A stretch of DNA of 30,783 nucleotides from positions 1 to 30,783 of IMG/VR virus record IMGVR_UViG_3300029266_000219; one strand, written 5' to 3'. The notes beneath the pieces are model-generated. The model ran no database searches and was not told where the DNA came from. It saw only the letters and a program-made list of their open reading frames with translations. Origin of the DNA: a virus. Positions 3,077 to 29,525 of this stretch are shown here, piece after piece. The first letter of the stretch is position 1, and each line of letters begins with the position of its first letter. The position numbers and the translations under genes were made by a program.

Positions 3077-4567
3077 ATGGGTAATTTACAACCACAATTT
3101 GGCTCGTTAGTGCCGTCGCAAGCTCAGCAGCTGCTACAAACTAATTATTTACAATTTAACAATGCTGCAGGAGCAAACTTTTCTAGCTTCGCTCAGCAAT
3201 ACCTACCTGAAGTTTACGAACAAGAGGTAGAGCGTTACGGTAACAGAACTCTTTCAGGATTTCTACGTATGGTTGGAGCAGAGCTTCCAATGACTTCAGA
3301 TCAAGTAATTTGGTCAGAACAAAATAGATTACATATTGCTTATTCTAATGTGGTAACAGCGGCTAATGCAGCTGGAGGCCAAATTCAAATCGTTCAAACT
3401 GCTGCTGGAGTTGTTCCTGCTATTATAAATGTAATATCTCCTGGTCAAACAGTAGTTATTATGGATGCAGTTGGAAACGAAGCAAAATGTGTTGTTACAG
3501 CTAGTAATACAACACCTGGAGCCGCAGGTGGTCTTGTTGTTGTTGCGCCTTATCAATTTGCTACTCTAGCTGCCGCTGGAATTGCAGTGGGATCTGTTGT
3601 AAAAATGTTTGTTTATGGTTCAGAATTCTTAAAAGGATCTAGTACTGTAGGTGCTGCCGCTGGAGCAAACGCATTAAACAATGCTATTCAACCTCAAGTT
3701 AGTATTACTCCTTCGTTCACTCAATTTTCTAACAATCCTATTATTATCAGAAACGAATACGTTGTAAACGGATCGGATATGGCTCAAATCGGTTGGGTAG
3801 AAGTTGCTGCTGAAGACGGAACATCTGGATATTTATGGTACTTAAAAGCTGAATCTGAAACTCGCTTGCGTTTTGAAGATTATCTTGAAATGTCTATAAT
3901 TGAAGGTGAACTTGCCGCTGCTGCTAGTGGTGCGCTTGCTGTCGGAATGAATGGTACTCAAGGTTTATTTGCTGCTATTCAACAAAGAGGTAACGTAGAG
4001 GTTGGATTCTCAGGAGCTGGTGGTTTAGATGATTTCGATGAAATCCTTAAAAACTTAGATACTCAAGGAGCTATTGAAGAAAACATGTTATTCTTACAAC
4101 GTCAAACGTCTTTAGACTTTGATAATATGTTAGGAGCAATTTCTTCTGGATTCCAAGGTGGTACAGCTTATGGATTATTTGAAAACTCTGAAGAAATGGC
4201 ATTAAATCTTGGATTTAGTGGTTTCCGCAGAGGATCTTATGACTTCTATAAAACTGACTGGAAATACTTAAACGACGCTACAACTCGTGGTGCTCAAGTA
4301 GGTACTAGCTCAATCGAAGGTGTTCTTGTTCCTGCTGGAACTTCAACAGTTTACGATCAAATTCTAGGAACAAATATCCGTAGACCATTTTTACACGTGC
4401 GATACAGAGCTTCAGAAACTGAAGATCGTCGTATGAAGTCTTGGTTGACTGGATCAGCTGGAGGCGCATTTACATCTCAATTAGATGCAATGCAAGTTAA
4501 CTTCTTGTCTGAAAGATGTTTAGTAGTACAAGCTGCTAATAACTTTGTTTTATTTCAAGGACTATAA
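3077..4567 (+). CDS. Major capsid protein
   Basis: A 496-residue protein directly after the scaffold candidate. Composition is rich in Gly, Ala, Ser and Asn, as expected for a shell protein. The N-terminal 90 residues contain a conserved-looking stretch (G-F-L-R-M-V-G-A-E-L-P-M-T-S) followed by a beta-rich Gly/Ala insertion at about residues 95-185. The rest reads as a mixed alpha/beta core of the HK97-fold type, with an acidic helix near 270 (R-F-E-D-Y-L-E-M). Codon choice is less AT-biased than in flanking genes (more C-ending Phe, Asn and Lys-adjacent codons), which fits very high expression. A strong hairpin follows 9 nt after the stop. HK97 fold is family knowledge, not demonstrated here. 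Confidence 0.75.
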   Translation: MGNLQPQFGSLVPSQAQQLLQTNYLQFNNAAGANFSSFAQQYLPEVYEQEVERYGNRTLSGFLRMVGAELPMTSDQVIWSEQNRLHIAYSNVVTAANAAGGQIQIVQTAAGVVPAIINVISPGQTVVIMDAVGNEAKCVVTASNTTPGAAGGLVVVAPYQFATLAAAGIAVGSVVKMFVYGSEFLKGSSTVGAAAGANALNNAIQPQVSITPSFTQFSNNPIIIRNEYVVNGSDMAQIGWVEVAAEDGTSGYLWYLKAESETRLRFEDYLEMSIIEGELAAAASGALAVGMNGTQGLFAAIQQRGNVEVGFSGAGGLDDFDEILKNLDTQGAIEENMLFLQRQTSLDFDNMLGAISSGFQGGTAYGLFENSEEMALNLGFSGFRRGSYDFYKTDWKYLNDATTRGAQVGTSSIEGVLVPAGTSTVYDQILGTNIRRPFLHVRYRASETEDRRMKSWLTGSAGGAFTSQLDAMQVNFLSERCLVVQAANNFVLFQGL

Positions 4568-24238: not shown

Positions 24239-25960
24239 CTAACCATCACAAGATACACAAGAAGGATCCATAGCACTTGCAGCAATATCACCACGCAAGA
24301 CGCTTTCAGTTCTGACATAATACAATGTTTTAATGCCTTTCTTCCAAGCATCAAAGTGAACTTGATTAATCCATTTAGGAGTTGCTTCTGAAGGAAAAGC
24401 TAAGTTTAAACTAACTGATTGATCTACATATTGTTGCCTTAGTCCGGCTTGATTTACTAATTCTAATTGATTAATTTCTTTAAACGTTTTAAAAACTTCT
24501 TTAGCTGGTATTTCATGGTCTCCCACAAGTATATCATCCAACCTTTTAATTCCCTGTACAGATCCGCCATCTTCTAGTATTTTTGCCCAAGTTTCCTCGG
24601 TGTTTAAGTTATATTGTTCTAATAAAATTTCAAGTGTAGGGTTTTTTCTTATGAACGTTCCTTTCGCTGATTGCTCTGTAAATACATTAGCAGCCCAAGG
24701 TTCAATACCAGGAGAAACATTCCCAGATAATTTCGAGTTTGAAACTGTTGGAGCAATAGCACGAAGGTGAGTGTTACGTGTGCCAGTACCAACACACCAA
24801 AGTGGCTCACCAAAAACCTCAGCGAGATCCATTGAAGCTCTTTCACTCTCAATTTTGATTTGACTAAAAATCTTTCTAGTCTCAAACTGAGATAATAAAC
24901 CTTCAAATGGTAATCCCCTTTCCTGAAGGTAAGTATGCCAGCCAAGAGCTCCGAGTCCAAGAGCTCTACCCTTTTCTGCAGATCTAACCGAGTTTTCAAA
25001 CCCAATTTTTCCTTTGGCTTTTTGGATAAATTCTTCAAGTACACCATCAAGAAACCAGATAGCATCATAAATAATATTAGTATTTTTCCATTCGTCATAT
25101 TTAGCTAAATTTAAACTAGATAAGCAACAAACAAAACTATGACTTTCGTCTGTATGTAAAACTATTTCACTACAGATGTTTGTCATATGAACCTTAAGTC
25201 CGTTCTGTTTATATGCCTTTGGGTTATTTTTGTTTGTATTACCTTTAAAGAGTATATAAGGTTCTCCAGTTGCTTTACGTTTTTGTAGTAGTTTTCCCCA
25301 CTTGCGTCTAGCTTCTTGATCTCCTTGCTCAAGTCTTCGCATAAACTTGTCACCGACCACTGCGCACTGGTGCAGATTGAGTGATTGTCTATTGACGTCT
25401 CCTTTAGGCTCTCTAATCTCCAGCCACTCTTCAAAGTCGGCGTGATCAATATTGATGTTAACTGATGCAGCTCCTCGTCTGACAGATCCTTGATTAGTGG
25501 CGAGTATAGTTGAATCGTAGATTTTGCAAAAAGGCACCACTCCGTCAGATGTTCCATTACCAGTAATTTTAGCTCCAGCGGGTCGAATTTGATTAATACC
25601 AATACCAACTCCACCGCCATGCTTAGCGAGTAGCATCATCTCTAAGTTCTTTTCACCAATATCTTTTATACTATCAGCAACATCAATCCCAAAACAACTA
25701 ATAGGAAGCCCACGATCGGTCCCAGTATTACTGAGAACGGGACTGGCGAGACAAAGCCATCCCTTCCAGATGTACTTGAAGAATGTTTCTGCAAGTTCTG
25801 GTCGGTCCAATCGTCTAGCCACCGTTGTGCATACTCTGTTGTAGGCATCTCTTGGGGTTTCTCCGTTAAGTAAATATCCCCCGGATATAGTCTTCTTGTA
25901 AACTTCTGTTTCTCCCCATTCTGGGTAATCTTCTCCTTTGATCCATTCATTTTTCCACAT
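24239..25960 (-). CDS. nrdA: Ribonucleotide reductase class I, large (alpha) subunit
   Basis: A 573-residue enzyme that reduces ribonucleoside diphosphates to deoxyribonucleotides with the NrdB radical. Visible catalytic residues are C89 (redox pair, S-C-F-G), N261, C263 and E265 in N-I-C-S-E (radical thiyl site), C278 (second redox Cys, C-C-L-S-S-L-N), Y547 and Y548 (T-L-Y-Y-V, radical transfer), and a C-terminal C568-x-x-C571 relay. All are in the expected order. The N-terminal ATP-cone domain of host class Ia enzymes is absent and the protein starts almost at the catalytic barrel, so feedback shut-off by dATP at that site is unlikely. It is the last gene of the operon and starts at TAAATG with the preceding gene. 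nrdB lies 1.6 kb upstream in the operon, not adjacent. Confidence 0.96.
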   Translation of the reverse strand: MWKNEWIKGEDYPEWGETEVYKKTISGGYLLNGETPRDAYNRVCTTVARRLDRPELAETFFKYIWKGWLCLASPVLSNTGTDRGLPISCFGIDVADSIKDIGEKNLEMMLLAKHGGGVGIGINQIRPAGAKITGNGTSDGVVPFCKIYDSTILATNQGSVRRGAASVNINIDHADFEEWLEIREPKGDVNRQSLNLHQCAVVGDKFMRRLEQGDQEARRKWGKLLQKRKATGEPYILFKGNTNKNNPKAYKQNGLKVHMTNICSEIVLHTDESHSFVCCLSSLNLAKYDEWKNTNIIYDAIWFLDGVLEEFIQKAKGKIGFENSVRSAEKGRALGLGALGWHTYLQERGLPFEGLLSQFETRKIFSQIKIESERASMDLAEVFGEPLWCVGTGTRNTHLRAIAPTVSNSKLSGNVSPGIEPWAANVFTEQSAKGTFIRKNPTLEILLEQYNLNTEETWAKILEDGGSVQGIKRLDDILVGDHEIPAKEVFKTFKEINQLELVNQAGLRQQYVDQSVSLNLAFPSEATPKWINQVHFDAWKKGIKTLYYVRTESVLRGDIAASAMDPSCVSCDG

Positions 25961-26317
25961 TTAGTCTGTTATTTTTTCGTAAATTAAAGTTTGAGTAGCA
26001 CTACCTGTTAAAGACGCTTTCATTAATGTATCATTAATCATAGTATATTTAACTAATAAATTCCAGTTGTTTTCAGACTGTGAAACAGTATTTATCTCAT
26101 TATTAGTTATAGAGCTAATTGATTCTTTAACTAAAGTGTTATTACTAAAGCTAAAAGAGTTTAAAGTTAGTAAATTATTATCACTATTATGTATTATTAA
26201 TTTACTATAAGACGAACCAATTGATCCAACTGACATCCAAAACCCTTCAAAATTACTTATCTGTGCGCTAACATTAACACCTAGTGTTAACATTAAAACT
26301 ATCATTATTTTTTTCAT
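25961..26317 (-). CDS. Secreted beta-rich small protein, lipocalin-like (tentative)
   Basis: A 118-residue protein with a clear signal peptide: basic M-K-K, hydrophobic I-M-I-V-L-M-L-T-L-G-V, and a V-S-A cleavage site before Gln-19, typical of Bacteroidetes. The mature part opens with F-E-G-F-W, a G-x-W-type motif, and then alternates short strands rich in Asn, Ser, Thr and Leu, ending with Q-T-L-I-Y-E-K. This fits a small beta barrel such as a lipocalin-like domain, but the similarity is weak. There is no lipobox Cys, so it would be soluble in the periplasm or outside. It is placed between coiled-coil and nrdA genes with TAAATG junctions on both sides. A role in envelope modification or exclusion of other phages is possible but unproven. 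Confidence 0.65.
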   Translation of the reverse strand: MKKIMIVLMLTLGVNVSAQISNFEGFWMSVGSIGSSYSKLIIHNSDNNLLTLNSFSFSNNTLVKESISSITNNEINTVSQSENNWNLLVKYTMINDTLMKASLTGSATQTLIYEKITD

Positions 26318-26566
26318 TTAATTTAATTCTAATTTTTTATCTTCTTTATTTATTGCGTCCTCAGCTTGCTTAGCTAGCTTATTAGCCTTAATCATTTCTT
26401 CTTTTAGCTCATCAATAGCATCTTGGTAATTAGGTAATTTTTTAACAACTTCTAATGTACCAACTGACATGTCTTTTATTGTAGTGAATTCATTAATAAC
26501 ATTTTGCATAACTCTAGTTAGTGCATCTACTTTGTTTTTCATCTCAACTAGTGTGTTTTCCTTCAT
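26318..26566 (-). CDS. Small coiled-coil protein, unknown function
   Basis: An 82-residue, almost wholly helical protein with heptad-like spacing of Val, Leu, Met and Ile (residues about 9-40 and 50-80), separated by a K-K-L-P-N-Y break. It should oligomerise. ATG 26566 overlaps the zinc-finger gene by 23 nt. The alternative ATG at 26542 (residue 9) lies 1 nt after that gene's TGA and is equally plausible, giving 74 residues. The next gene starts directly at TAAATG. No family is recognised. Confidence 0.55.
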   Translation of the reverse strand: MKENTLVEMKNKVDALTRVMQNVINEFTTIKDMSVGTLEVVKKLPNYQDAIDELKEEMIKANKLAKQAEDAINKEDKKLELN

Positions 26567-26693
26567 TGTTTTTTATTTTAATTTGTTCCATAGCGTAATC
26601 TAAATGTAATTCTTCCCAGTGCATCCTATAATCAAAACCACTTGAAAACGTTTTATCGCAAGCGCTGCATTTAATAGTATGTTTTCTTACCAT
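26544..26693 (-). CDS. 49-aa single C2H2 zinc-finger protein
   Basis: The chosen start is ATG 26693, which overlaps the membrane-protein gene by 7 nt; the longest frame (to 26750) would overlap it by 64 nt. The product has C9-x2-C12-x12-H25-x4-H30 with Phe at 17 and 20, i.e. a classical C2H2 spacing, followed by an acidic/basic helical tail. C2H2 domains bind DNA, RNA or protein. With one finger only, protein binding or weak nucleic-acid contact is likeliest. Such single fingers are uncommon but known in phages. It is inside the cassette between nrdB and nrdA. Confidence 0.65.
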   Translation of the reverse strand: MVRKHTIKCSACDKTFSSGFDYRMHWEELHLDYAMEQIKIKNNEGKHTS

Positions 26694-26947
26694 AGTAGAT
26701 ACACTAAATAACCTATTACTACGTTTATATTTATAGCTACTAAATTCCATTGCTTAGCAATCCAAACCTGTGGCGTACATAGTAAACCACCTATTATGTA
26801 GCTAACAGCGCCAATGTTGCCATACGATAATATGTATGGCCCCATCATTATAAACGCTGTACCCATATAACCTAAACGACCTGATAATCTTTCGTTAACG
26901 GTTAATCTTCTATCTTTTACTAACTTTTTTAAAAAATTATTATTCAT
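26687..26947 (-). CDS. Small integral membrane protein, unknown function
   Basis: An 86-residue protein with a basic N-terminus (residues 1-24) and three hydrophobic segments at about 27-42 (Y-M-G-T-A-F-I-M-M-G-P-Y-I-L), 45-60 (I-G-A-V-S-Y-I-I-G-G-L-L) and 69-86 (L-V-A-I-N-I-N-V-V-I-G-Y-L-V-Y-L-L). The positive-inside rule suggests a cytoplasmic N-terminus. The P-Q-V-W-I-A-K-Q motif between segments 2 and 3 and the size recall a half-transporter or PQ-loop-like protein, but this is weak. The ATG overlaps the oxygenase stop by 8 nt. It may act in the inner membrane in exclusion or nutrient uptake; no function is shown. Confidence 0.62.
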   Translation of the reverse strand: MNNNFLKKLVKDRRLTVNERLSGRLGYMGTAFIMMGPYILSYGNIGAVSYIIGGLLCTPQVWIAKQWNLVAININVVIGYLVYLLW

Positions 26948-27521
26948 TTTTATATCTATAAAACATTACACATACTATTCTGTCTTCTTTAGTTACGTTT
27001 GGATACTTACTATGAAAATAATTTGAATCATAAGATAAAAATCTATTAGGTTTGTGACCTATTATAGACTTTAAAGTCCATTTAGATAAATCATCACAAA
27101 CTTCTAAAGCTTTATTATGTATTTCTAAAGAACCTTCGTTGTTATCTCCGTATTCTTTATGATCCCAAAAAGCAGTTCCATTTAATTTGCTTTTAACGTC
27201 TTCAGGTACTTCGCTCATATACAAAACCCCTGCTCTTTCTGGGTTACTTTTTTGATCTTGATGCACTTTTAAGTCAGAATGTATTCTCCATTCATTGTCT
27301 TCATCGTGCTTGGATCTTCTAAAGCCACACATTATCATTTCAATAGATTTACCTTCTATTCTTTCAATTTCTTTTTCAAAATAAGATGTTAATTCTTCAG
27401 TTGATTTTACAACATAAAGAACACATCCTCCTTCCATATCTATTTTTTCAAAGTTTATTAACTTGCTGTTTAACTCATCGAAAAGAGTTTTATTTAAAAA
27501 ATTATCTTTAAAATATATCAT
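26940..27521 (-). CDS. Fe(II)/2-oxoglutarate-dependent oxygenase
   Basis: A 193-residue protein with the metal-binding triad of this superfamily: H81-x-D83 in R-I-H-S-D, then H170 in Y-F-H-S-K-Y-P, with R181 (E-D-R-I-V-C-V-M-F) positioned to bind the 2-oxoglutarate carboxylate. The C-terminal strand order fits the double-stranded beta-helix core. Members hydroxylate proteins, nucleic acids or small molecules using Fe(II), O2 and 2-oxoglutarate. The substrate cannot be told here. It starts 12 nt after the nrdB stop and overlaps the next gene by 8 nt, so it is expressed with RNR. That link suggests nucleotide or DNA-base hydroxylation, but a protein target is equally possible. Confidence 0.78.
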   Translation of the reverse strand: MIYFKDNFLNKTLFDELNSKLINFEKIDMEGGCVLYVVKSTEELTSYFEKEIERIEGKSIEMIMCGFRRSKHDEDNEWRIHSDLKVHQDQKSNPERAGVLYMSEVPEDVKSKLNGTAFWDHKEYGDNNEGSLEIHNKALEVCDDLSKWTLKSIIGHKPNRFLSYDSNYFHSKYPNVTKEDRIVCVMFYRYKNE

Positions 27522-27533
27522 ATTATTTATTTA

Positions 27534-28502
27534 TTACCAAATATCTTCAAAATCTTCGCCTTCACCTGCTTTCGAGTAATCAGTAGGACGAACAGCAAAA
27601 AAATCAGTGTGAGTGTGCCCACCTGTAAGATGGTAGAACCAGTTGAGATTGTCGGATCCTGACTCGTCATACGCAAAGTACTGCCCGAGGTCGAAGTAAC
27701 CGAGTTCTGATAGTTTTTCATTTAATCTTTTTCTAATAAATTGTTTTAAATCATAGGCCTTTATACCTTCTATGTCACCCATTTCAAACATTTTGTCAAT
27801 ATAGGTTTCTTCAGCTACTAGCATTGTAGACGCTGCAGTTACTACATCTTCTCTACATTCATCTAAAAGACTTGAATCTTCTTCGCACATGTGTCTAAAT
27901 AGCTTGCAACCCATTTTACTATGTAGTGATTCATCTCTTACAGACCATTTCATCTGTTGGCCAATGCCTTTGAGCAGATTACGCAACTGAAAACTATATA
28001 ACACAGCAAAAGCGGAATAGAGAGATACGCCTTCTGCAAATGCAGAAAAAATAGCGATAGACTTGCCAATCCCACGAGCGTCAGAACCAGTGTAACTAAC
28101 AAGGTTATCAAAGCGCTGCGACGTGGCGGGTTCGTGTAAGAATGCTTCATAATCTTCTAATCCTAGAGTTTCATTTAAATAGCTATAAGCTACTGCGTGT
28201 ATAGTTTCTTGTGAGCCAAACATCATTGCCATCTGTTGTATTTCATGTTTAGGAAACCAACCAACAACTTTTTGTGTCCAGTAATCAGATACAGCACACT
28301 CTGTTTGAGCAAAACCTAGTAGAATATTCCCTACTAAGTTCTTCTCTTCTTTTGTTAGCTTTTCATTCCAGTCTTTTAAATCGCCAGACATTGGAATCTC
28401 TGTGTGAAGCCAAAATGCTTGAGCTTGCTTTAGCCAACCTTCAGTATAGTACTCTGGGTACTCAAAGGGTCTGCAAGCTATTCTTTCATCAAATAATCCC
28501 AT
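27534..28502 (-). CDS. nrdB: Ribonucleotide reductase class I, small (beta) subunit
   Basis: A 322-residue radical-generating subunit. Metal ligands are E68, E99, H102, E157, E191 and H194, with spacings (31, 3, 34, 3 residues) equal to those of the E. coli protein, so alignment is secure. The radical Tyr is kept (Y106, E-T-I-H-A-V-A-Y). The first ligand is Glu rather than the usual Asp. The C-terminus has a Tyr (Y309) for radical transfer and an acidic/aromatic end (D-F-E-D-I-W) for binding NrdA. The start overlaps the preceding small gene as TAATG. It functions with NrdA encoded downstream in the same operon. Confidence 0.96.
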   Translation of the reverse strand: MGLFDERIACRPFEYPEYYTEGWLKQAQAFWLHTEIPMSGDLKDWNEKLTKEEKNLVGNILLGFAQTECAVSDYWTQKVVGWFPKHEIQQMAMMFGSQETIHAVAYSYLNETLGLEDYEAFLHEPATSQRFDNLVSYTGSDARGIGKSIAIFSAFAEGVSLYSAFAVLYSFQLRNLLKGIGQQMKWSVRDESLHSKMGCKLFRHMCEEDSSLLDECREDVVTAASTMLVAEETYIDKMFEMGDIEGIKAYDLKQFIRKRLNEKLSELGYFDLGQYFAYDESGSDNLNWFYHLTGGHTHTDFFAVRPTDYSKAGEGEDFEDIW

Positions 28503-28642: not shown

Positions 28643-28808
28643 AACACATTATTTTTAATTCATTTTGTTTCTCTACAAGATCCCTGTAAAATACATAACC
28701 TTTATTCTCTATACTCCATTTAATCCATCTATCAATTTGACGCTGTGCATACATTTGCCTAGCTACTTCTTTTGACTTTCTAGGATTAATCTTATTGTCT
28801 CGTCGCAT
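28635..28808 (-). CDS. 57-aa small basic helical protein
   Basis: ATG 28808 opens a 57-codon frame ending at TAG 28635-28637, overlapping the next gene's start by 8 nt and the preceding endonuclease by 46 nt. The product is basic at the N-terminus (R-R-D-N-K-I-N-P-R-K) and helical after that (A-R-Q-M-Y-A-Q-R-Q-I-D-R-W-I-K-W). The nested position and absence of stops fit the overlapping style of this operon, but the long overlap with the endonuclease lowers certainty. No family recognised. Confidence 0.5.
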   Translation of the reverse strand: MRRDNKINPRKSKEVARQMYAQRQIDRWIKWSIENKGYVFYRDLVEKQNELKIMCYE

Positions 28809-29209
28809 TCTTTTTGATTTTGTGGTTTAAATAAGATAACGTTATTAAGGTTGTTTACAACATGATACTTAAACATTTTCCATCTAAGTGGGAAGCTTTC
28901 GTTTGCTCTACCTTTAGTTTCTATTATAAAACCTTTACCTATAAAGTCTGGAGTATATTTTATATTAAGTATTTTTTTACTACCTCTATTTTGGTAATGA
29001 CCTTTACCATTGCCGCAGCGTTCGTAGCTTTCATTAGGAAAATCAAACGCAGGAAATAATTCATACGTTTGACCTTCATATTCAGCTTGTATTTTAGCTT
29101 TCTTTAAAGCCATATACATATAACGCTCTAAGCCTGATGCAAAGTTTATACCATCATAAAGAACCTTGTTAGATCTTACAGGACCTTTCTTTTTATATTT
29201 CTTTTTCAT
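28763..29209 (-). CDS. PD-(D/E)XK endonuclease, endonuclease I / resolvase type
   Basis: A 148-residue protein from ATG 29209, chosen because GGAG lies 6 nt upstream; the longer frame (to 29242) would overlap the previous gene by 50 nt. Residues: E28 in S-G-L-E-R, the core P-D88-F then E97-x-K99 in F-I-I-E-T-K-G, i.e. D-x8-E-x-K of the PD-(D/E)XK fold. A basic N-terminus (K-K-K-Y-K-K-K) and a C-terminal helix (R-W-K-M-F-K-Y) would hold DNA. This fits phage endonuclease I (T7 gp3 type), which cuts branched DNA and degrades or resolves replication products. An atypical Gly/Cys/Lys-rich insert lies at 64-80. Alternatively it could be a TnsA- or VSR-like nicking enzyme. Confidence 0.78.
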   Translation of the reverse strand: MKKKYKKKGPVRSNKVLYDGINFASGLERYMYMALKKAKIQAEYEGQTYELFPAFDFPNESYERCGNGKGHYQNRGSKKILNIKYTPDFIGKGFIIETKGRANESFPLRWKMFKYHVVNNLNNVILFKPQNQKECDETIRLILESQKK

Positions 29210-29525
29210 AATGTTCTCCGGTGTTACCGTTTTGACCAACAATTCTCATACGTTCATCATTCTCTTCAAAGGTTACGTCAAGATCTTTCAACATAGCTTC
29301 TTCTATTTCGTCTCTAAGACAAGATCTAGCAGCTTCTAAGTAAAGTAATGAATCAGTCATTTCTTCTTGTACATCAATAAGAAATCTAGCTAAGTCTTTT
29401 TTACCAGAATTAACTTCACTCATCATTGTATCTCCGTATTTCTCTTGGCCTATTAAAGATCTTTCATCAATCTTTTTGATTGCTCTAATAACTACTTCAT
29501 CAGTTGTTCTAACTACGTATCCCAT
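29193..29525 (-). CDS. MazG-like nucleotide pyrophosphohydrolase-family protein
   Basis: A 110-residue protein with the layout of small phage all-alpha NTP pyrophosphohydrolase-like proteins: K-Y-G near residues 29-31 after an E, a helix, then E54-E55-M-T-D58 at the end of a second helix (L-A-R-F-L-I-D-V-Q-E-E-M-T-D). The remaining 40 residues are charged. The metal-binding E-x-x-D motif is present, but the first E-x-x-E half is less clear than in the neighbouring 260-aa protein. Its ATG shares one base with the neighbour's stop (TAATG). It could remove non-canonical dNTPs. Confidence 0.58.
   Translation of the reverse strand: MGYVVRTTDEVVIRAIKKIDERSLIGQEKYGDTMMSEVNSGKKDLARFLIDVQEEMTDSLLYLEAARSCLRDEIEEAMLKDLDVTFEENDERMRIVGQNGNTGEHYEKEI
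29216..29219 (-). promoter_or_regulatory. Shine-Dalgarno GGAG that fixes the endonuclease start
   Basis: On the minus strand GGAG precedes AACATT and ATG 29209. It supports this start over the upstream ATG 29242. It is one of very few purine-rich sites seen before a gene in this window. Confidence 0.5.

Follow-up and report, generated by a model that had tools for sequence, protein, structure and literature searches.

The four small genes that lie between the ribonucleotide reductase genes nrdB and nrdA of this virus do not form one four-part machine; they are what a variable cargo slot presently contains. The window, that is the whole stretch of DNA analysed here, is the 30,783-base IMG/VR virus record IMGVR_UViG_3300029266_000219. 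The nearest relatives of its structural protein (3077-4567) are found in Caudoviricetes sp. MW202828 (47% identity), Maribacter phage Panino (46%) and the Flavobacterium elemo phages (41%), from which we take the window to be a flavobacterial-type marine phage. We estimate a probability of about 0.5 that this slot, which belongs to the nucleotide-metabolism operon shared by many marine, flavobacterial-type phages, has as its core occupant a half-transporter-like membrane protein, family F0, that would serve nucleoside-type precursors. The half-carrier reading of F0 is based on predicted fold, conservation and gene neighbours, and the neighbours weigh more than the fold searches.

According to the mechanism that we propose, cargo is gained and lost as whole genes and is joined by stop/start overlaps, which may preserve co-translation with nrdA. 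F0, the family of the first gene (g1) and the commonest occupant, would be a three-helix inner-membrane protein corresponding to half of a PnuC/PQ-loop carrier. It would import nucleoside-type precursors into the infected cell and so supply both the reductase and the pool of nucleotides or NAD. Family F1 (g3) may act as a small helical partner of reductase operons, and g4 and its likely relatives, family F2, often encoded just 5' of F0, would be secreted beta-barrels and perhaps periplasmic ligand binders. The zinc finger g2 and a neighbouring oxygenase appear to be sporadic extras.

Layout of the operon and gene joints

The operon runs on the minus strand from a thymidylate-synthase-like gene, a tentative label given by inspection, through a MazG-like gene and several small genes to nrdB, the oxygenase, g1, g2, g3, g4 and nrdA. 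The class I reductase subunits are identified by PF00268 for the small subunit (nrdB, 27534..28502, minus strand, E 2.6e-55) and PF02867 for the large subunit (nrdA, 24239..25960, minus strand, E 1.4e-90). The cargo slot extends from the nrdB stop to the nrdA start (25961..27533, minus strand).

The earlier note had placed four genes between nrdB/oxygenase and nrdA and had described them as locked together by overlaps of 7-23 nt and TAAATG joints. All four open reading frames are found there on the minus strand, and the joints are as claimed: the overlaps measure 8 nt for oxygenase/g1, 7 nt for g1/g2 and 23 nt for g2/g3, and direct TAAATG joints connect g3 with g4 and g4 with nrdA. Since homologues of g2 start at an internal methionine, the 7-nt g1/g2 overlap, and hence the start chosen earlier, is right. 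No special status follows from these joints. Two further joints in the window's operon type overlap as well, with medians of 43 and 83 nt, so the tight packing of g1 to g4 is ordinary compaction and does not single these genes out.

Comparison of the window with L002, its closest relative, shows 7 synonymous and 2 non-synonymous codon changes in g1, 3 and 1 in g2, 12 and 2 in g3, and 14 and 20 in g4. These counts mark g1 and g3 as coding genes under constraint and, on four changes, g2 as well, while g4 is much less constrained than g1, g2 and g3 together (Fisher p 0.0018). On this pattern, chance open reading frames were rejected as an explanation of the four genes. Neither Pfam, NCBIfam nor PADLOC has a curated family that any of them matches above cut-off, and PHROG gives no match at E 0.01. 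Their products are predicted to lie in the cytoplasm, the inner membrane and the periplasm, as had been proposed. The earlier interpretation is partly supported: the genes are real and separate nrdB from nrdA, but they do not behave as a fixed four-gene device. Further along the operon, a TTG-start open reading frame (28763-29242) matches the Holliday-junction-resolvase-like phrog_190 (E 9.7e-14); it overlaps both neighbours and is kept across the operon in relatives.

Occupancy of the nrdB-nrdA slot

A scan with NrdA yielded 80 loci, and addition of the other scans made 102 distinct nrdB-nrdA intervals readable. nrdB and nrdA are separated by 200 nt or more in 74 of 78 nrdA-selected loci; the corresponding counts for six other joints in the operon are 2/40, 0/63, 1/65, 0/72, 0/69 and 8/69. 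F0 is present in 85 of the 102 distinct slots, F1 in 65, secreted genes in 16, the zinc finger in 7 and the oxygenase in 7, counts that are not independent events because the slot-bearing viruses are related. Five slots are nearly empty (4-49 nt), and in 17 further cases F1 lies just 5' of nrdB, outside the slot.

If the four genes formed one device, they would be expected to travel together. All four families are present in only 4 of the 102 slots, representing two lineages and two orders. The set recurs in L002 and, differently ordered, in the diverged L005/L006, so that co-occurrence elsewhere is narrowly found, but a common four-gene order is not. Of 74 distinct nrdA-selected loci, 47 have both F0 and F1, 12 have F0 only, 11 have F1 only and 4 have neither; the presence of one is independent of the other (Fisher p 0.73). 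We therefore reject the single locked four-gene device of the earlier note on the rarity of the full set, its two orders and the independence of F0 and F1, with F1 following the reductase. When members were tested for occurring together, F0 and F1 did not exceed chance, and the exception is the pairing of F2 with F0 (20 of 32 F2 loci).

On a quick NrdA tree (LG+G4, SH-aLRT support only), the minimum number of changes is 10 for F0, 14 for F1 in the slot, 6 for the oxygenase, and 5 each for the zinc finger, the secreted gene and the F0/F1 order. Thirteen contigs whose slot lacks F0, several of them short fragments, carry no F0 elsewhere. Single-protein scans with g4, g2 and g3 returned the L002 contig only (plus L129 for g2); they performed poorly because the patterns are short, and HMMs over the fetched loci were used instead. 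By tblastn against the phage collection, g1, g3, two other F0 and one F2 found no match, and thus no isolate in that collection has a detectable copy at the thresholds used. Three unrelated open reading frames separate the reductase genes of Cellulophaga phi14:2, and none lies between those of Flavobacterium phage immuto.

Gain and loss of a whole gene is seen for the 2OG-oxygenase-like protein of 193 aa (26940..27521, minus strand), a mobile neighbour cargo that matches phrog_1644 (E 1.2e-10) and, below cut-off, DUF6445 (E 0.011), with no PDB sequence match. In L002 the NrdA protein is identical to that of the window and the same four genes are present; the oxygenase is absent, and the nrdB stop runs directly into the g1 start. 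Where they can be aligned, L005 and L006 share 99.5% identity; what sets them apart is a 561-base segment immediately 5' of F0 that carries the oxygenase and has a shared TTTATAA at both of its edges. Near-identical viruses therefore show clean presence and absence of the oxygenase, although these are metagenomic contigs in which an assembly error is conceivable. The oxygenase copy of L006 (4502-5062), which near-identical L005 lacks, is frameshifted near its start. The slot illustrates how genes can be added to and lost from a phage operon while an essential enzyme pair stays intact.

The membrane protein family F0

g1 (26687..26947, minus strand) encodes an 86-aa protein whose homologues make up F0, a widespread undescribed membrane family and the chief occupant of the slot. 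The three membrane spans proposed earlier agree with the AlphaFold (AF2) model, which has long helices at residues 17-42, 45-63 and 67-85 and a pLDDT of 90.6. Among 78 homologues, R24, Y27, G29, Q60, K65, Q66, W67, N68, V70 and N75 are invariant. F0 resembles PnuC, PQ-loop and SemiSWEET proteins in being a three-helix unit of about 70-86 aa with a conserved Q..KQWN...N pattern that resembles a PQ motif. It differs from them in lacking a Pfam, NCBIfam or PDB sequence match and a significant PDB fold match. The 78 members gave no Pfam match at E≤0.1, including PnuC, PQ-loop and MtN3, and no NCBIfam match at E≤1; profile searches of the PDB gave no match. Foldseek against the PDB returned nothing under E 0.001; the weak matches, also among the VIA-align rows, are generic helical bundles, and no SemiSWEET or PnuC row appeared in the PDB fold searches. 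BFVD matches with modest E-values are small phage membrane proteins, of which two are CBU-0592-like and some carry the database name PnuC (probability 1.00, Foldseek E 0.3 and worse).

In other phages, the neighbours of F0 are often nucleotide-metabolism genes. Of 45 F0 loci found with g1, 23 carry a ribonucleotide reductase gene on the locus, and nrdA/nrdB are absent from the other 22. In six of these 22 an AAA_28 kinase lies directly 5' and QueF directly 3' of F0, and two more are truncated by contig ends. PnuC and NadR are a known NAD-salvage pair, and the likeness of F0 to PnuC extends to the PnuC-annotated BFVD matches and to the NadR-like kinase next to F0 in other phages. In L110, the AAA_28 kinase is similar to NadR in its kinase half (E 5e-5, under the curated cut-off). 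In L146, F0 is located directly 3' of a divergent nrdA. Other settings of F0, sugar genes in L123 and lysis/tail-like genes in L102, show that its context is not exclusively one of nucleotides. An N-terminal four-cysteine zinc ribbon is fused to 23 of 114 distinct F0, which is odd for a carrier and counts against that reading. In L105, L107, L110, L116, L117 and L119, the NadR-like AAA_28 kinase is followed by an F0 that carries the zinc ribbon and then by QueF. A 7-deazaguanine role for F0 and F2 was tested via QueC and rejected: QueC occurs on 3 of 28 contigs and is missing from all 20 RNR-slot contigs, and the idea does not explain the window.

Marine phages have to obtain nucleotides for numerous copies of their genome, and for most of them the source is believed to be recycled host DNA or a reductase. 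If F0 is a carrier, phages would also boost uptake from outside during infection, and many marine contigs bear F0.

The helical protein family F1

g3 (26318..26566, minus strand) encodes an 82-aa helical, coiled-coil-like protein for which no transmembrane segment is predicted; the alignment of its family F1 has 59 rows. F1 tracks reductase genes, not F0. Scanning with a subset of close F1 sequences found 80 loci, and 76 of these have a ribonucleotide reductase gene. It is of class I in 58, and the other 18 have only the class II gene nrdJ. The queries were drawn from reductase loci, and F1 copies elsewhere could be missed. The reductase gene, nrdJ included, is at most 100 nt away from F1 in 64 of the 80 loci, compared to only 19 of 80 with F0 within 60 nt. 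With stricter matching, nrdJ is found in 17 of 22 F1 loci without class I genes; as an identity check, the L202 copy matches the solved triphosphate reductase 1l1l (E 5.5e-43). F1 occurs both 5' and 3' of nrdJ. In L196, L202, L216, L226, L230, L236, L238 and others, nrdJ replaces nrdB-nrdA in the same operon and F1 remains beside the reductase. F1 may be a new partner protein of both reductase classes, I and II. Many F1 with no F0 after them end in a KKLEL- or KFETDVE-like C-terminal tail (in the window at 26321-26335), which could be a binding peptide; the KKLEL-like pattern occurs in 35 of 1378 open reading frames, mostly F1.

These associations bear on a different explanation, that F0 and F1 are both partners of the reductase, F0 as a membrane tether of a reductase/nucleotide complex and F1 as a protein that regulates or stabilises the enzyme. 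The persistence of F1 beside the reductase through the class I/class II swap, in several relative positions, would be expected from such a partner, as would the high occupancy by F0, its place directly after nrdA in L146 and its N-terminal zinc ribbon. The explanation does not account for the 22 of 45 F0-selected loci without nrdA/nrdB, for the F0-F1 pair in three contigs (G014, G017 and G022) in which no NrdA was detected, or for the five nearly empty slots, and we hold it to be doubtful.

The zinc finger g2 and the secreted proteins g4 and F2

g2 (26544..26693, minus strand, in an open reading frame that extends to 26750) encodes a single C2H2-like zinc finger. Translation from the first ATG gives 68 aa and from the internal methionine 49 aa; the homologues in L005, L006 and L099 begin at the internal methionine. 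The finger follows the pattern CxxC...H...H and reaches E 0.006 with Pfam C2H2, below cut-off.

g4 (25961..26317, minus strand) encodes a secreted protein of 118 aa. Its AlphaFold model, built mainly on F2 sequences, has an N-terminal hydrophobic helix followed by eight predicted strands (25-117) at a pLDDT of 74. Among PDB barrels it matches a designed barrel with Z 11.7, the Cap15 barrel with 11.2 and avidins with about 10-11, and with moderate confidence we describe g4 as a predicted eight-stranded up-and-down barrel. The model thereby resembles the calycin-type barrels (lipocalin, fatty-acid-binding protein, avidin), but the pLDDT is that given above and the protein shares with them no family match and no common ligand or motif. 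Fifteen g4/F2 members gave only stray matches to Pfam. Close relatives of g4 are found only in L002 and L005/L006. The other secreted family, F2, is probably related: the g4-type protein of L002 matches the F2 profile with an HMM E of 2.4e-4, and the g4-F2 hhalign alignment is limited to the signal region and GxW. In the 20 F2-selected loci that pair with F0, three of them without a reductase gene on the locus, F2 is directly 5' of F0; it is never directly 3'. Some of the 12 remaining loci have F2 behind a tail-fibre-like gene, others behind QueC. In other marine phages (L172-L175, L178), F2 directly follows QueC, which in L172 has an NCBIfam E of 3e-38, below its cut-off.

The earlier note had guessed at superinfection exclusion or host takeover. 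As an envelope moron set, membrane-bound g1 and fast-evolving, secreted g4 would stop the entry of competing phages, in keeping with patchy presence and with the weak constraint on g4. Exclusion genes often sit near tail-fibre/holin-type genes, and in L102, L153 and L155 the F2 relatives are flanked by tail-fibre-like and holin-like genes (named by eye). However, F0 and F1 are well conserved within a nucleotide operon, and the neighbours of F0 elsewhere, which include kinases and QueF, and those of its paralogue, a nuclease and a kinase, speak against exclusion or host takeover. None of the four genes matched PADLOC at E 0.1, a point of limited weight as exclusion proteins are outside its scope. 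For the set as a whole we consider exclusion unlikely; it is least unlikely for the fast-evolving secreted gene.

Comparison with other reductase intervals

In T-even phages, the homing endonuclease gene mobE lies in the nrdA/nrdB interval (PMC2988022). The two arrangements are alike in having an extra gene between class I reductase genes that varies among relatives. They differ in that here a recurrent set of other small genes is found and the gap is expanded in nearly all loci (74/78). A homing-endonuclease element was rejected, as Pfam at E 1 found no HNH or GIY-YIG domain in the four genes or the oxygenase. Pure passenger DNA without common purpose at a recombination-permissive joint, which would suit the mobE precedent, the occasional interspersion of phage nrdA/nrdB with unknown genes (PMC3653736) and the independence of F0 and F1, is very improbable given that no homing-endonuclease match occurs among the four genes, that the same families refill the slot (F0 or F1 in 70 of 74 nrdA-selected slots) and that g1 and g3 are under purifying selection.

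The short F0 paralogue

The cargo slot with a half-transporter-like F0 remains our preferred reading. In an extended and tentative form, which we consider rather unlikely in full, F0 would be an undescribed phage half-carrier family that imports nucleosides with a secreted barrel as binder, and a paralogue would provide a second route by which the infected cell eats nucleic acid from outside. In larger marine phages, this route would comprise a TonB receptor, a periplasmic S1/P1 nuclease, the half-carrier, an AAA_28 kinase and a phosphoribosyltransferase. We found no report on phage SemiSWEET, PnuC, CBU_0592 or TonB with auxiliary metabolic genes, in a search that covered little of the subscription literature and so does not prove their absence; PMC11361711 mentions phage ExbB, not a receptor.

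The paralogue has 72-75 aa and is homologous to F0 across all three helices (hhalign 96%). It resembles the CBU_0592 family membrane protein (NF047864) at E 0.0072, a likeness shared by the two CBU-0592-like BFVD matches of F0; its score of 16.2 is below the cut-off of 25, and no F0 member matches that family. In all ten paralogue loci, the periplasmic S1/P1 nuclease is found 5' and the AAA_28 kinase 3', directly so in eight, with one intervening gene in L186 and a 130-nt gap in L188. A phosphoribosyltransferase is present in 4/10 loci, and 7 of 10 paralogue contigs searched have a TonB-receptor plug domain (PF07715) in an open reading frame of 824-857 aa. The run of TonB receptor, nuclease, paralogue and kinase in these marine phage contigs looks like a nucleic-acid scavenging operon. 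The contigs concerned are L134 (5543-10249) and L182-L191, with the TonB-dependent receptor and the phosphoribosyltransferase present in the proportions just given.
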